48,423 nt of DNA from a virus, in the IMG/VR virus record IMGVR_UViG_3300048927_000791, positions 1 through 48,423 of that record; one strand, given 5' to 3'. Below are positions 34,524 through 41,269 of this stretch, piece by piece. The notes under the pieces were generated by a model. The model was not told where the DNA came from and searched no databases. It saw nothing but the letters and a program-made list of their open reading frames with translations. A program made the translations under genes and the position numbers. Within the stretch, counting starts at the first letter, position 1. Each line of letters starts with the position of its first letter.

Positions 34524-35081
34524 GTGGCAGCCTATCGCGAGAGCTTTGTCGTCTACGTGGCGTGCGACCCGCCTGCCCTGTTCTGGACTGGGCAGGGCCG
34601 TTTGCCGCTCTCGGCTGATGCGGTGCTGCCAGAGGATATGATAGCGGTCGGCGCTGGCCGGCTGATCAACATCCCCGACTTCCAGCAACTGATCAACGGC
34701 ACCGCCGAGCGTCTGACGTTCGGGTTCTCGGGCGTGTCGGACGAAACGTTGCGCCTGGCATTCGAGGAGGCGCCATCCGTGAAGGGCGCGCTCGTCTGGC
34801 TTGGGCGGATCGACTTCGGCGAGGACTGGCAGCCGCTTGGCCCCGTCGAGTGGGAGGCGCTGTTCCAGGCCCGCGAAATGTCGATCAGCCGCCAGAACCA
34901 GACTGGCACCGCGGAACAGGGCATCACCATCACGCTGGCTAGCGGCGACACGGCACGCAGCCGCGCGCCCAACAACTTCTTCACCGACGCCGACCAGCGC
35001 CGGAAATATCCCACCGATGCCATCTTTAGCCATGTCGCGGGGATCTCGCAGGGCACGTCACGCCGCTGGGGGCCCCGATGA
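34524..35081 (+). CDS. Distal tail / hub-region protein
   Basis: 185 aa, GTG start. AAYRESFVVYVACDPPALFW opens the protein, followed by MIAVGAGRLINIPDFQQLIN and LGRIDFGEDWQPLGPVEWEA. The C-terminal DADQRRKYPTDAIFSHVAGI resembles the end of tail proteins that precede the NlpC/P60-like and tip genes in gene transfer agents and related siphophages. Assigned by position and general resemblance. ATG at 34522 is out of frame. Confidence 0.72.
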   Translation: MAAYRESFVVYVACDPPALFWTGQGRLPLSADAVLPEDMIAVGAGRLINIPDFQQLINGTAERLTFGFSGVSDETLRLAFEEAPSVKGALVWLGRIDFGEDWQPLGPVEWEALFQAREMSISRQNQTGTAEQGITITLASGDTARSRAPNNFFTDADQRRKYPTDAIFSHVAGISQGTSRRWGPR

Positions 35082-35461
35082 ACCTCGCCGACTTCCTCTA
35101 TGATGCGGGGAGCGATCGGTCAGCGTGGAACTGCTCCACCTTCGCCGCTGATTGGTGCGTTTCGCTCGGCTACCCCGACTTCGCGGCTGCCTGGCGCGGT
35201 ATCACCGATCCCGCCGAGTGCGATGCGACGGCGCCGAGCGGTGAGACGCTGGTGCAGCTGTGGGGCATCGGCATCGGCGACGGGCTGCCGCTGGCAAGCG
35301 CGCCCTATCGGGCCGGCGATATCGGCGTCATCTCTCGCGCGGGACTCTCCGCAGGTGCCGTCTACACCGGAGATATGTGGGCGCTGCGGCGTGACGGCGG
35401 GCTGGCGTTCATCGCGCTGCCCGATAGCGCCGTGCTGAAGGCGTGGCGGCCTTATGTCTAA
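35078..35461 (+). CDS. DUF6950-type (NlpC/P60-like) tail protein
   Basis: 127 aa. SAWNCSTFAADWCVSLGY puts C19 in the position of the NlpC/P60 catalytic Cys, and the tail-typical GDIGVISRAG and a C-terminal DSAVLKAWRPYV follow, as in DUF6950 proteins of phage tails. A conserved His is not obvious, so catalysis is uncertain. It overlaps the tip gene by 8 bp; such proteins help the tail open the cell wall or act structurally at the hub. Confidence 0.8.
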   Translation: MNLADFLYDAGSDRSAWNCSTFAADWCVSLGYPDFAAAWRGITDPAECDATAPSGETLVQLWGIGIGDGLPLASAPYRAGDIGVISRAGLSAGAVYTGDMWALRRDGGLAFIALPDSAVLKAWRPYV

Positions 35462-38258
35462 GACCATTGGCTCTATCCTTACCACGGTCGGTTCGATTGT
35501 CTCGGTTATCCCCGGAGGCCAGTTGATCGGTATCGGTCTCATTGTAGCCGGTGCGATCACTACTGGCCTTGCGTCCAACCCCAAGCCCGATACACAATCC
35601 AGCTCGGTCAAGCAGGCCCGCCCGCCCCGTGTCTCCGCCTATGGTACGTCGAAGCTGGCTATGGCCTATGTCCTCTACGAGACCGGCACCAACGGCCACG
35701 CAGTCGATGTCGGCGCAATCCACGATGGCAAGATGGATGGCGTCGTGCAGCTGTACCTAAACGACGACAAGGTCACCGTCTCAGGCGCCTATGTGCAGAC
35801 CGGCGCAGATGGCCGCTACGGCAACGACAACATCCGGCTGATGTACACGGACGGCAGCGCGCCGGGATCGTGGTTCAACCAAGTCGGCGCGATCGTGCCT
35901 GACTGGACGAGCAACCACCGCGGCGATGGTGTGGTGATGCTCGCCATGATCGCGAAGAACGTCAAGACGGAGAACTTCACCAAGTTCTATCCGAACGGCG
36001 CCCCCCAAGCTTCAATGGTGGCCCGCTGGCAGCGTTGCCCAAACCTCAACGCCTCCAACCCGCTGGATGAAAGCGGCTGGACGTGGACCGAGAACCCTAT
36101 CCGGCAGCTGGCCCATTACATGCTGGTGCGCGAGTGCCCGCAACCGACCATGCCGGCGACAGATGGCAGCTACGCCTCTACCTTGGCCGCGCTGCGCCTC
36201 GCCTATTACAACGCCAAGATCGCGCCGACGCTGTCCTATTGGCGGGCTGCCCAGAACGTTTGCGACGAGGCTGTCCCGCTCAAGTCAGGCGGCACGGAAG
36301 CGCGCTATCGGTCCTGCGTCGCCCATAGCCACACCGACACCCACAAGCAGGTGCGCGGGTCTATCCTGGCGACCTGCGATGGCTGGATGGCCCCGCGTGC
36401 GGATGGGGCTTTCGTTGTCTTCGCGGGCAAGGTCTACGAGCCCACGGTCACGATCGGTCCCGAGCATATCACGTCGTTCGAATGGAACGGTGTCGGCGTC
36501 GACGATGACAAGGCGATCAATGAGTTCGTCTGTTCGTATGTCTCAGATCAGCACGACTATGCCACTGTCGAAACCGATGCTTGGACCGACGAGGACGACA
36601 TTTCTGAGCGCGGGCAGCTGCTGTCCACGACACTCGACTTGCCGGTTCCATCGCATGGTCAGATCCGCCGCCTCGCCAAGCGCGAGATGTCGCGGCGCAA
36701 TGCCGTCTTCCGCGGATCGATCACCACCAACGTCGCCGGCCGTATCATCCGTGGGCAGCGTTATATCCGCCTGCGGCTGGTGGTCGCTGGCCGCACCTAT
36801 TTCGACGGCCCGGTGGAGATCACCGCGCTAACCCGGAATATCGCGAGCGGCGGCGTGACCTTCAGCTGGGTGGCGGCGGACGTAAACGTTGACACGTGGA
36901 ATCCGGCGACCGAGGAAGGCAACCCCGCGGCAACTGGTGACCGGGTGGCCGGGGAGCCACTGACCACGCCGACCATCACGGACGCAGTGGCAATCTACGA
37001 CACGGTGTCAGACACTGGCAGCGGCACGCGGATCCAGATCGAGGCAGCGGGGCTCAACCGGGATGACGTGACGTGGTTCGCGCGGTGGCGGAAGTACGGC
37101 GACACCGCCTGGAACACCGACAACTACCCAGACATTGACGCGGGCACCTCGGTTACGCTGCTGACATCGTTCGTTCCCGCCAATGCGTTGGTGGAAGTGG
37201 AAGTAGCCTATACCACCGGTGACGGTCGCATCTCGCCGTGGTCGACGCTCGCAACCGTCGACACGGCTACCGATGCGACGCCTCCGGGTGATGCAACGAC
37301 GATCACGCTCGTCAACTGGTCGGACACCCTTGACCTGTCGACGGCGGCTATCCCGCGCTCATCGTCCTACCGCTGGCGCTTCTATGCGTCGGACGGCACC
37401 ACGCTGGTGCGCACGATCAACACGCCTATCCCCAGTGTGTACTATACCGCGGCGCAAGCCGAGCTGGACGGAACGCAGCGGGCCTATATCGTGAAGGTGG
37501 CGGGCGTAAACGGGGCAGGTGCTGGCGGTGAGGCGACGACTTCGACGCTCACCAATGCCGCGCCTTCGACGGTGACGGGTGTTTCGGCAACGGGCGGGAC
37601 AACTGAGGCGGAAATCGACTTCACGCTGCTGTCCGAGTCCGACGTTGCCGGGTATGTTGTCTATGTCAGCACGGCGACGGGCTTTGATCCCCTTACGCAG
37701 GGCACAGCTTTCTACAACAACGGCGCGTCTCCGGCCTACCTGCAGAGCCTCGCTGCGGGCACGTTCTACGCCAAGATCGCGGCCTATGATGCCTGGACGC
37801 GGCGCCCTGACCTGCTCAACTTCTCGTCTGAGGTGACGTTCGACATCACGACGGGCGGCGGCGGCGTGGGCGGCGGCGGCGGCGATGGTGGCGGTGGCTA
37901 CTGCGTCACCACGGATACCTGCGTGCTGCTCGCAGACGGGACCACCAGGGCGGCCGGTGACCTCGCTGTCGGCGATATGGTCTGGACGCAGCACGAGACG
38001 ACGTTCGCTTGGGGCTCCTACCCTATCGAGGCGATTGAGTTCGTGGAAGACGACGTGTTCGCCGCTGACATTGGAGAGCGCCGCACCCGCGCAACAGCGG
38101 GCCACCTGATGCTGATCAACGGTGCCTGGCTGCGCATGGATGCGATCGGTACCCCAGCCGACCGCGCGATGGTCGCCAAGATCACGGTGACGGATGCCCA
38201 CACCTACGTGGCCAACGGCGTCCTGCACCACAACATCAAGCCCATCGAAGCACCCTGA
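35454..38258 (+). CDS. Tail tip / host-specificity (J-like) protein with C-terminal Hint domain
   Basis: 934 aa. N-terminal: a hydrophobic stretch (about 8-40, IVSVIPGGQLIGIGLIVAGA), then a hub-like region to about 480 (e.g. GSILATCDGWMAPRADGAFV, the TipJ hub core). Fibronectin-III-like repeats follow, clearest at about 702-796 (STVTGVSATGGTTEAEIDFT). A Gly-rich linker (about 798-815) joins a 111-residue Hint domain, C817 to N927. Binds the host surface at the tip of the tail. The stop codon is part of late element copy 6. Confidence 0.88.
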   Translation: MSKTIGSILTTVGSIVSVIPGGQLIGIGLIVAGAITTGLASNPKPDTQSSSVKQARPPRVSAYGTSKLAMAYVLYETGTNGHAVDVGAIHDGKMDGVVQLYLNDDKVTVSGAYVQTGADGRYGNDNIRLMYTDGSAPGSWFNQVGAIVPDWTSNHRGDGVVMLAMIAKNVKTENFTKFYPNGAPQASMVARWQRCPNLNASNPLDESGWTWTENPIRQLAHYMLVRECPQPTMPATDGSYASTLAALRLAYYNAKIAPTLSYWRAAQNVCDEAVPLKSGGTEARYRSCVAHSHTDTHKQVRGSILATCDGWMAPRADGAFVVFAGKVYEPTVTIGPEHITSFEWNGVGVDDDKAINEFVCSYVSDQHDYATVETDAWTDEDDISERGQLLSTTLDLPVPSHGQIRRLAKREMSRRNAVFRGSITTNVAGRIIRGQRYIRLRLVVAGRTYFDGPVEITALTRNIASGGVTFSWVAADVNVDTWNPATEEGNPAATGDRVAGEPLTTPTITDAVAIYDTVSDTGSGTRIQIEAAGLNRDDVTWFARWRKYGDTAWNTDNYPDIDAGTSVTLLTSFVPANALVEVEVAYTTGDGRISPWSTLATVDTATDATPPGDATTITLVNWSDTLDLSTAAIPRSSSYRWRFYASDGTTLVRTINTPIPSVYYTAAQAELDGTQRAYIVKVAGVNGAGAGGEATTSTLTNAAPSTVTGVSATGGTTEAEIDFTLLSESDVAGYVVYVSTATGFDPLTQGTAFYNNGASPAYLQSLAAGTFYAKIAAYDAWTRRPDLLNFSSEVTFDITTGGGGVGGGGGDGGGGYCVTTDTCVLLADGTTRAAGDLAVGDMVWTQHETTFAWGSYPIEAIEFVEDDVFAADIGERRTRATAGHLMLINGAWLRMDAIGTPADRAMVAKITVTDAHTYVANGVLHHNIKPIEAP
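37902..38234 (+). other. Hint (intein/Hedgehog) domain within the tail-tip gene
   Basis: Block A starts at C817 (CVTTDTCVLLADG), block B has T881 and H884 (TAGHLM), and the C-terminal motif ends ANGVLHH-N927. No homing endonuclease is inserted. The residue after N927 is Ile, not Cys, Ser or Thr, and only seven residues follow, so normal splicing is unlikely and C-terminal or N-terminal cleavage is the expected activity (bacterial intein-like type). Confidence 0.87.
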
Positions 38259-38268
38259 CGGCGGTAAC
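38255..38268 (+). promoter_or_regulatory. Late element copy 6 (CTGACGGCGGTAAC)
   Basis: Contains the stop codon of the tail-tip gene. ATA (in CATAGCGT, 38287) follows after 18 bp and the ATG of the next gene 13 bp later; no Shine-Dalgarno. Confidence 0.7.
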
Positions 38269-38299
38269 TCTGGCGCAGGTGCGGCCATAGCGTCGCGCC

Positions 38300-38992: not shown

Positions 38993-39329
38993 CTTCAACA
39001 TCGAAGTGCCGCGGCAAGGTGACTGGTTCCGCGAGATGGTGCTGACCGACATCGACCGCGTGGCGATCAACCTGACGGGTTGCAGCATTGCGTGGAGTGC
39101 TCGGGCTATCGCAGGCAGCGGTGCCGTGCTGGCCACAGCTACAGTCGCGATCGTCGAGCCCACAACCGGCCGCATCACCGTGCGCTGGCATGGCCCTGAC
39201 TTCGATGCATTCGGTCTCCCCACCGAGGTCGTCCGCGCCGCTCATGATCTCAAGCTGACCTACCCTGACAGCATCATCGACGTGCTGGCGCGCGGGCAGC
39301 TCATCATTTATCCCGAGGTGACAGCATGA
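38982..39329 (+). CDS. Small beta-rich tail protein, 115 aa
   Basis: MSRDFNIEVPRQGDWFREMV, then INLTGCSIAWSARAIAGSG and LKLTYPDSIIDVLARGQLII. The pattern fits a BppU-like or baseplate/fibre-attachment domain found before tailspike genes; assignment is tentative. The ATG at 38982 lies within the end of the preceding gene. It overlaps the tailspike gene by 4 bp. Confidence 0.65.
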   Translation: MSRDFNIEVPRQGDWFREMVLTDIDRVAINLTGCSIAWSARAIAGSGAVLATATVAIVEPTTGRITVRWHGPDFDAFGLPTEVVRAAHDLKLTYPDSIIDVLARGQLIIYPEVTA

Positions 39330-41269
39330 CCGTCGAGCGCATCGAAGTCATCAACGCGCGCGGCGAGAGCTATCCCGACGTGCTGCGGCGCACTGGCCTT
39401 TTTGGTGTCCTGCCAAATGACACGGATGAGCAGGCTGTTTCAAAGCTGAATGCGGTTGCTGCGGAAAGCGCGGCTTTTGCAGAGGAGTTCTCTGGGCCCG
39501 CATATGCGACTGTATCCGCTGGCGAGGCAGCCACCACCGCAGGCCAATTCTTCCGAGTTCCGATTTCCGGTACCACTCCCGTCGAGTATGATCGGTATCA
39601 GCGGACGCCGGGTGGATCAGTTTTGGCTGCCCCTCTTGCTACTACCGTGGCACTCGCAGCTACGACTGGCGCCGGCCTTAGTGGATTCTCGCAATCGGTC
39701 GCTTATGCTGCCGGCGTTGGCAAGAAACTGCGTCAAACGCTATCGGTGACAGACGCGCCGTATAATGCAGACCCGACCGGCGCGGCGGATTGCGCGGCTG
39801 CGTTTAGTGCATGTTACGCAGATGCTATTGCACGTGGCTATGATGTAGACCTTACTCCGGGCCGCTTCAATTTCCTCTCAGCACCCACAATTCCCGCAGG
39901 CTCAATCTGTATTCGTGGTCGCGGCCCATCCCTCACTACGCTGGTGATCGCACATGGCGGCACAGCTATGCAATTCGCGCCAGCTAACGCAACGCAGTTC
40001 GTAGAGGTTTCTGGGTTCAGTTTAGAGGCGGCGCACACCGCGCCTTGTCCGCTAGGCTTCGACGTTGCATTCCCGGAAGTGTCCAGCTATCCGCTAACGC
40101 AGTTCCGGGCCCACAATATTCGGTTCGTCTCCAATTTAAATAACACGTCATCCCCTTATGCTCAAACTTGGGGACGCGGCTTTAAACTAGAGAATGTGTG
40201 GAACTCCAAGATTTTCGATGTGTCAGGTTCCAGTGCGCCAATTCCCGGCGATACGGGTAACACTGGTTTTCTTGAAGTAACTGGCGGCGATCTTGCATTG
40301 ATTGCTCCAGTTATAACGGATGTTCATTGGTACTATGGGGCCGACGTTATTCGCGCTTCTGCTTACATGGAAGGCGTTGACATATCTAATTGCGAGTTTG
40401 TCGGATTAACCCGCGGTATCTATGTACCTTCAACTACGCCAGTTGGTGGCGCAGATAACACCTACCGCTCACAGTCTGTTTGGCTTCGTTCGACGCATAT
40501 TGCCGCGCATACGGCTTGCATAGATTTTGATAATGTATTTGACTACTATCAAGACGACTGTAACTTACAGCGGTGGGCGCATTCTTCTGCAACTAATTGG
40601 ATCGGCCTAAAGCTAAACAACGTCCAGCGGCCGAACATCATCGGCGGGACGTTCGCCGGCAATGAAGGTGATGTAGGAATCACCACGGCGGGCATTGTCG
40701 CAACTGGTTCAAACTCGGCGCATGGCATCGTCACTGGTGTCGTGTTCGAGAACTGCGACACCCAATTCAGCTTGGATGGCAGCACCGCCGGATGGGTGAT
40801 CTCCGACAATAGATCTACCGGCGCCACGGCTGATGTTTACGTTCTGGATGGCGTTCATCACAAGCTGGAATGGCAGCGCACTGACGGTGTTATCCTATAC
40901 GCCAGCGATCAGATGTCCGGGCCAATCATGGGCGGCGCTTACACGCCGACGCTAACTGGCATCACAAACGTTGCAGCCGCTACCGCCTATGAGTGCCAGT
41001 ACTCTCGCGTCGGGAATATGATTACTGTCTCAGGTCGATTTGATCTCGATCCTACGACCACCAGCGTCGCAACGACTATGGATATTACGCTTCCTGTATC
41101 GTCTACCCTGGCGCTACCGCAGTATTGCTGCGGCACCGCATCAAATGCTTTAGGTGGCGCCGGCCTGATCGTTGGAAACACAGCCAATAACAAGGCGCAG
41201 TTTCAGGTAACTCCGCCGACAGCATCCAACCACGGCTATTCATTCATCTTAATGTACCGAGTAGCCTAG
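39326..41269 (+). CDS. Tailspike with pectate-lyase-like beta-helix
   Basis: 647 aa, the probable receptor-binding protein or capsule depolymerase. An N-terminal virion-binding part (about 1-130) precedes DAPYNADPTGAADCAAAFSA (about 145-164), the standard opening of phage right-handed beta-helices. Rungs such as NIIGGTFAGNEGDVGITTAG continue to about 510; a C-terminal domain (about 535-647) may trimerise. The gene is more A/T-rich than neighbours, as is common in host-range genes. No catalytic residues can be named with certainty. Confidence 0.85.
   Translation: MTVERIEVINARGESYPDVLRRTGLFGVLPNDTDEQAVSKLNAVAAESAAFAEEFSGPAYATVSAGEAATTAGQFFRVPISGTTPVEYDRYQRTPGGSVLAAPLATTVALAATTGAGLSGFSQSVAYAAGVGKKLRQTLSVTDAPYNADPTGAADCAAAFSACYADAIARGYDVDLTPGRFNFLSAPTIPAGSICIRGRGPSLTTLVIAHGGTAMQFAPANATQFVEVSGFSLEAAHTAPCPLGFDVAFPEVSSYPLTQFRAHNIRFVSNLNNTSSPYAQTWGRGFKLENVWNSKIFDVSGSSAPIPGDTGNTGFLEVTGGDLALIAPVITDVHWYYGADVIRASAYMEGVDISNCEFVGLTRGIYVPSTTPVGGADNTYRSQSVWLRSTHIAAHTACIDFDNVFDYYQDDCNLQRWAHSSATNWIGLKLNNVQRPNIIGGTFAGNEGDVGITTAGIVATGSNSAHGIVTGVVFENCDTQFSLDGSTAGWVISDNRSTGATADVYVLDGVHHKLEWQRTDGVILYASDQMSGPIMGGAYTPTLTGITNVAAATAYECQYSRVGNMITVSGRFDLDPTTTSVATTMDITLPVSSTLALPQYCCGTASNALGGAGLIVGNTANNKAQFQVTPPTASNHGYSFILMYRVA

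Follow-up and report, generated by a model that had tools for sequence, protein, structure and literature searches.

A-type bacterial intein-like (BIL) domains were first described two decades ago. Published accounts describe a thioester formed at their N-terminal end and cyclization of an Asn at their C-terminal end, resulting mostly in cleavage and sometimes in ligation by the freed amine (PMC4031507, PMC7765530), and give these domains no settled role (PMC7765530, PMC7664689, PMC4031507). Another Hint domain is BIL2 of the Tetrahymena BUBL1 polyubiquitin locus (PDB: 6y75, 6tmm), a eukaryotic domain positioned internally between ubiquitin-like domains, for which one study reports formation of an isopeptide bond with the epsilon amine of lysine (PMC8616854). 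We describe here a phage version, situated at the C-terminus of a tail-tip protein, which shares with the A-type BIL of Clostridium thermocellum (PDB: 2lwy) the Hint fold, the first-position Cys, the T-x-x-H motif, the terminal His-Asn, the lack of Cys, Ser or Thr at the +1 position and an association with variable host proteins. Unlike that domain, the phage Hint closes distal-tail proteins, is followed by a tail of just 3-10 residues with a Lys at +1 or +2, and displays a characteristic T-x-HE motif; it is also shorter, with 111 residues as against the 138 of the 2lwy chain. With Tetrahymena BIL2 it shares an N-terminal flank that could be passed to Lys, although isopeptide activity is reported for the former and the phage domain is known from its sequence. 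The Hint domain of the Hedgehog Hog region has the same fold and thioester-forming Cys; the phage version differs from it in retaining the His-Asn dyad, in being followed by only the seven residues IKPIEAP and in lacking a sterol-recognition region. Finally, the class 1 inteins in phage terminase, portal and helicase genes contain a homologous Hint and provide the nearest matches among named phages, but they bear Ser or Thr at +1 and, unlike the tip Hint, are embedded in conserved enzymes or in the portal.

The window, by which we mean the entire 48,423-base stretch of the virus record IMGVR_UViG_3300048927_000791 that was analyzed, encodes on its plus strand a J-like tail-tip protein of 934 residues (35454..38258), whose gene lies 3' of the tape-measure gene and other tail genes and 5' of further tail genes. 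Residues 8-736 of this protein match phrog_5616 (tail fiber protein) with an E-value of 3.5e-82. The body of the protein is followed by a Gly-rich linker, G801-Y816 (37854..37901), which directly precedes the Hint Cys and confirms the linker reported in the preliminary description; the Hint domain itself spans C817-N927 (37902..38234), and the protein ends with the tail I928-P934 (38235..38255), in which the +2 position is occupied by K929 (38238-38240). On the opposite strand, a 309-residue open reading frame (37359-38288) lies beneath the FN3 and Hint parts of the tip gene, and most likely owes its existence to the GC richness of the coding strand.

A scan of viral contigs with an alignment of the domain (A1) recovered 147 relatives, the best 80 of which were read and, together with the window and the fecal phage scaffold MT835519, yielded 72 distinct Hints. 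Within this set, the block A nucleophile, represented in the window by C817 (CVTTDTCVLLADG; 37902..37904), the block B T/S-x-x-H motif (T881-x-x-H884; 38094..38105) and both the penultimate His and the Asn of block G (H926-N927; 38229..38234, with the Asn codon starting at 38232) are each retained in 72/72. The T845-x-H847-E848 motif (37986..37997) typifies the phage family (T in 70/72, H in 64/72 and E in 69/72). A His in block F is found in 71 of the 72, a figure inflated by the scan pattern used to find the relatives having lain in that block. Thus, C817, T881/H884, H925-H926-N927 and the seven-residue tail stand exactly where the preliminary description had placed them, and the loss of the block A Cys or the terminal Asn among relatives, which it had regarded as counting against such a domain, is seen in none of the 72. 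The distance from Cys to Asn ranges from 109 to 133 residues across the family, and the shorter forms, including that of the window, are missing some 18 columns of the alignment that the longer relatives have between blocks B and F, because of which the domain could be slow. In 42 records, no match is interrupted by a stop. In the 42 members of the C-terminal class, the -2 to -11 positions are Gly-rich, with Gly itself at -2 in 36/42. The -1 residue, Tyr in the window, varies across the family.

As a single sequence, the window domain scores below the curated thresholds of the established profiles (17.2-18.1 bits against the cut-off of 35.8 for PF14890, and 15.4 against 15.6 for TIGR01443), and some of its relatives pass the cut-off of the Pfam PT-HINT model. 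The scFv chains that top a single-sequence phmmer search of the PDB are an artifact of the Gly linker. The window domain and 70 relatives were aligned (A2; 71 sequences, mean column identity 42%), and this alignment served as both a profile and the AlphaFold2 input. The profile recovered from the PDB, as its best match, Tetrahymena BIL2 (E=3.5e-11), followed by the DnaX mini-intein (8.1e-10), the DnaB intein (1e-8) and the Clostridium BIL 2lwy (1.3e-8). The model of the Hint domain attains a mean pLDDT of 96.6 and a pTM of 0.88, and superposes along its entire length on the DnaB mini-intein 1mi8 (Z=16.2, rmsd 1.9 Å over 113 residues), BIL2 6y75 (Z=15.9, also the top Foldseek match), the BIL 2lwy (Z=15.1, 1.7 Å over 110 residues) and Hedgehog 1at0 (Z=15.1). 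A total of 84 chains superpose with a Z of at least 8, the absence of a given family from this list not amounting to its exclusion. These profile matches and the confident model of the Hint fold rule out a chance occurrence of the motifs. The defining features of the HINT superfamily, namely the fold, the block A Cys and the block B T/S-x-x-H, are all present; residues 817-927 of the tip protein are, by sequence and predicted structure, a complete Hint domain, and the identification of an intein-like domain with an intact catalytic set in the preliminary description is thereby upheld.

The residue following the terminal Asn is informative with regard to the kind of Hint domain involved. In the 72 distinct Hints from the best 80 of 147 relatives, the +1 position is occupied by K (26), I (22), V (8), Y (6), L (5), A (3) or M (2), and by Cys, Ser or Thr in 0/72. 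The same reading of the Hints from Lak, Corynebacterium, Planktothrix and Gordonia phages gave Ser or Thr at +1 in 4/4; three of these lie in genes annotated as terminase, helicase and portal, and the Lak record is unannotated. The Hint of Prevotella phage Lak-A1 (L112), with Ser at +1, occurs in a short 159-residue frame under translation table 11, which may be truncated if a stop codon is translated as an amino acid in this phage. The invariance of the catalytic set, coupled with the absence of a +1 Cys, Ser or Thr, amounts to an A-type BIL signature rather than that of a splicing intein. The canonical class 1 intein features, a +1 nucleophile and the interruption of a continuous host protein, are both absent, as is the lack of the block G His-Asn that marks B-type BILs, since H926-N927 is present. 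Hence, we assign the domain to the A-type BIL kind on the basis of these sequence features, the retained His-Asn and the missing +1 nucleophile, as sequence comparison by itself does not separate it from inteins.

These observations bear directly on whether the domain might be an ordinary mini-intein that splices itself out of the tip. The fold and the conserved blocks are the same, but the 0/72 count at +1, the mere seven residues that follow, the want of a matching C-extein in tips lacking the Hint, and the location of the domain in the non-conserved Gly/Pro-rich ends of different proteins render this highly improbable; with Ile928 at +1 and no C-extein, we reject the splicing intein. The preliminary description was right that the first residue after N927 is Ile and hence no nucleophile, a condition now seen to prevail across the family. 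Its view of splicing as improbable is too strong, as A-type BILs that lack a nucleophile at +1 reportedly do splice, with cleavage dominating (PMC4031507).

Self-cleavage is, from these sequence features, the best reading of the domain, and the tail tip is probably trimmed by the virus, or covalently joined, once the protein has been made. More specifically, we propose, with a probability of about 0.68, that this siphophage tip protein has a C-terminal, self-processing Hint of A-type BIL character, which would trim or rejoin the tip as a maturation step, as suggested by the conserved motifs and the structural model. Under this proposal, C817 would attack the Tyr816-Cys817 bond, so that the Gly-rich linker ends in a thioester, and N927 would cyclize to cut off the short tail. 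The thioester would then be hydrolyzed or passed to an amine, such that the Hint departs, leaving the linker as the new C-terminus of the tip upon N-terminal cleavage, a flexible end either free or newly joined. As both the Asn and the Lys are retained, the C-terminal reaction is likely to be used too, and not N-terminal cleavage alone. The likely use would be tail-tip maturation, with the C-terminal block being removed or replaced once the protein has folded or assembled.

Estimates of selection against the two nearest relatives, rough as synonymous sites are near saturation, give dN/dS values of 0.069 and 0.068 for the Hint, 0.124 and 0.129 for the tip core, and 0.151 and 0.121 for the FN3 part; a comparison of these two relatives with each other shows little contrast (0.085 for the Hint versus 0.111 and 0.094). 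Thus, as a rough measure, purifying selection on the Hint is stronger than on the rest of the tip. Beta-rich domains form the end of many phage tips, and an inactive Hint could likewise have been kept as a structural or adhesive beta-domain, a view left room by the fact that self-processing is here predicted from sequence and model. Nevertheless, the first Cys, block B and the His-Asn are invariant in all 72 Hints, and we know of no reason why a structural domain should keep them; accordingly, we deem such retention distinctly improbable.

Two aspects of the domain go beyond the preliminary description: its recurrence as a phage family, and the Lys that follows the Asn. In the 72 Hints from the best 80 of 147, this Lys is the +1 residue in 26 and the +2 residue in 44, i.e. 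in 70/72, and of the two exceptions one ends at a contig edge and the other has its Lys at +3. Clustering at 60% identity retains it in 31 of 32 clusters. Among the members in which the Hint comes last (n=42, with L041 left out), it occupies +2 in 39 and +1 in three. The tails after the Asn are otherwise variable, 3-10 residues long and rich in Asp/Glu and Pro; Lys accounts for only 7 of 270 of their later residues, and the entropy at +2 is 0.48 bits versus 3.25 at +3 and 3.32 at +4. This pattern raises the possibility of lysine ligation, wherein a Lys side chain attacks the thioester formed at the Gly-rich end, so that the tip would be linked through an isopeptide bond instead of simply trimmed. 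The acceptor could be K929 in the protein's own tail, a different tail subunit or a host-surface amine. In addition to the near-constant Lys, the status of Tetrahymena BIL2 as the best profile match in the PDB speaks for this, as does the presence of two Hint-ending tail proteins in some phages (two tail proteins in L021; two Hint-ending proteins each in L072, L081 and L085). However, a manual reading of weaker alphaproteobacterial Hints outside the family, omitting those with no His-Asn or an internal or doubtful one, found Lys at +1 or +2 in 9 of the 14 with a terminal-type His-Asn, in varied settings, so that the Lys signature is not unique to the phage family. Moreover, the +2 Lys may merely aid Asn cyclization, and the likeness to BIL2 is unspecific, with ordinary inteins at 8e-10 to 1e-8 in the same search. 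We therefore hold lysine ligation to be unlikely. One might further imagine a chemically loaded tip, in which a Hint-held thioester is discharged onto lysine, so as to weld distal tail proteins by isopeptide bonds or to fix the tip to a host-surface amine at adsorption; this we regard as unlikely. As for the Hedgehog-like ester attachment entertained in the preliminary description, the invariant His-Asn and the absence of a sterol-binding region after the Hint leave it less supported and set it back as the main reading. Amine transfer, possibly to Lys, would better fit the conserved Lys.

The domain is, on comparison of sequences, an optional C-terminal module found on several distal-tail proteins. 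A search of viral contigs with tip residues 43-542 returned 13 relatives, two with a Hint, ten intact without it and one broken, i.e. 10/12 intact tips are free of the Hint. These ten have no Hint elsewhere in the fetched locus, show no matching C-extein continuation and end differently. A search starting from the Hint recovered more Hint-bearing tips, of which L011-L013, L016 and L101, a Stakelama locus, can be aligned over most of the tip's length. PHROG matches for 42 C-terminal-class proteins (window and L041 included, L007 left out, with more than one match per protein possible) comprise 5616 in 20, 376 in ten, 1101 in seven and 32 (tail assembly) in five; further bearers belong to PHROG 2048 and a minor tail protein family. 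The N-terminal parts of the bearers form 18 clusters unjoined by BLAST, 12 of which are singletons; the 5616 and 1101 bearers share one cluster, so that unrelated bearers are fewer than the PHROG count. In a tree of the 72 Hints, the bearer labels change 12 times, against a minimum of 6 and an average of 41 after shuffling. Stars mark only 10 of the 67 inner branches, however, and the tree compels few jumps, because of which it is no proof of the module jumping between tail proteins. The sharing of the module by N-terminal parts unjoined by BLAST is the firmer sign.

Endosialidase tailspikes furnish a precedent for self-cleaved C-terminal domains, and the Hint could similarly act as an intramolecular chaperone that aids tip folding before being cut off. 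Consistent with this, in 42/71 distinct sequences a flexible linker leads into a Hint at the very C-terminus, and the domain is fused to several distal-tail families. Against it, most intact tip relatives do without the Hint, and in 29/71 the domain is internal, inside long, often Pro-/Gly-rich proteins, some with a DUF4815 domain; hence, a chaperone role seems quite unlikely. In two loci (L065 and L080) two Hints occur in one protein with a short stretch between them, the pair in L065 being 84% identical; self-processing of such tandem Hints could release the intervening segment.

Certain other genes in these neighborhoods deserve mention. The distal-tail protein of the PHROG 2048 family in the window (34524-35081, plus strand) is Hint-free, whereas its counterpart in L021 (1416-2501) ends in a Hint and lies upstream of the Hint-ending tip. 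The record containing L027 (G018) has a second, split-looking Hint match (C1:13632-14498) in an 867-residue frame, perhaps an endonuclease-bearing intein in another gene. Downstream of the tip gene, the window encodes a 647-residue protein (39326-41269, plus strand) without a PHROG match, whose first ~78 residues are kept in the two nearest phages (76% and 65%), with the rest unmatched; judging from this, it resembles a tailspike that has retained its anchor and exchanged its receptor-binding part. Named bacterial genomes with the Hint are those of Stakelama pacifica, Sphingomonas desiccabilis and S. glacialis; loci L101-L103, from Sphingomonas or Stakelama, resemble prophages. Matches were found in 6 of 397 genomes drawn from the family of S. 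desiccabilis, three of them strong, and in 19 of 385 drawn from the class, where the one strong match was in the same S. desiccabilis genome. The hosts of these phages are probably Sphingomonadales.

Public databases already contain Hints in phage proteins, labeled plainly as, for instance, "Hint" or "Fibronectin type III". The window Hint, used as a query against 50,697 phage records, matched only one unannotated scaffold at E<=0.01, and we found no report in open-licence PMC text of a phage tail protein that terminates in a Hint or BIL domain. With more than 70 distinct phage Hints, many of them on distal-tail proteins that contact the host and free of the pressure to splice, the family offers a simple system for testing the role of BIL domains. 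If ATP-free ligation to Lys were true, the 111-residue domain would constitute a compact protein-joining tool; if it only trims, it would still represent a new maturation step for siphophage tail tips.
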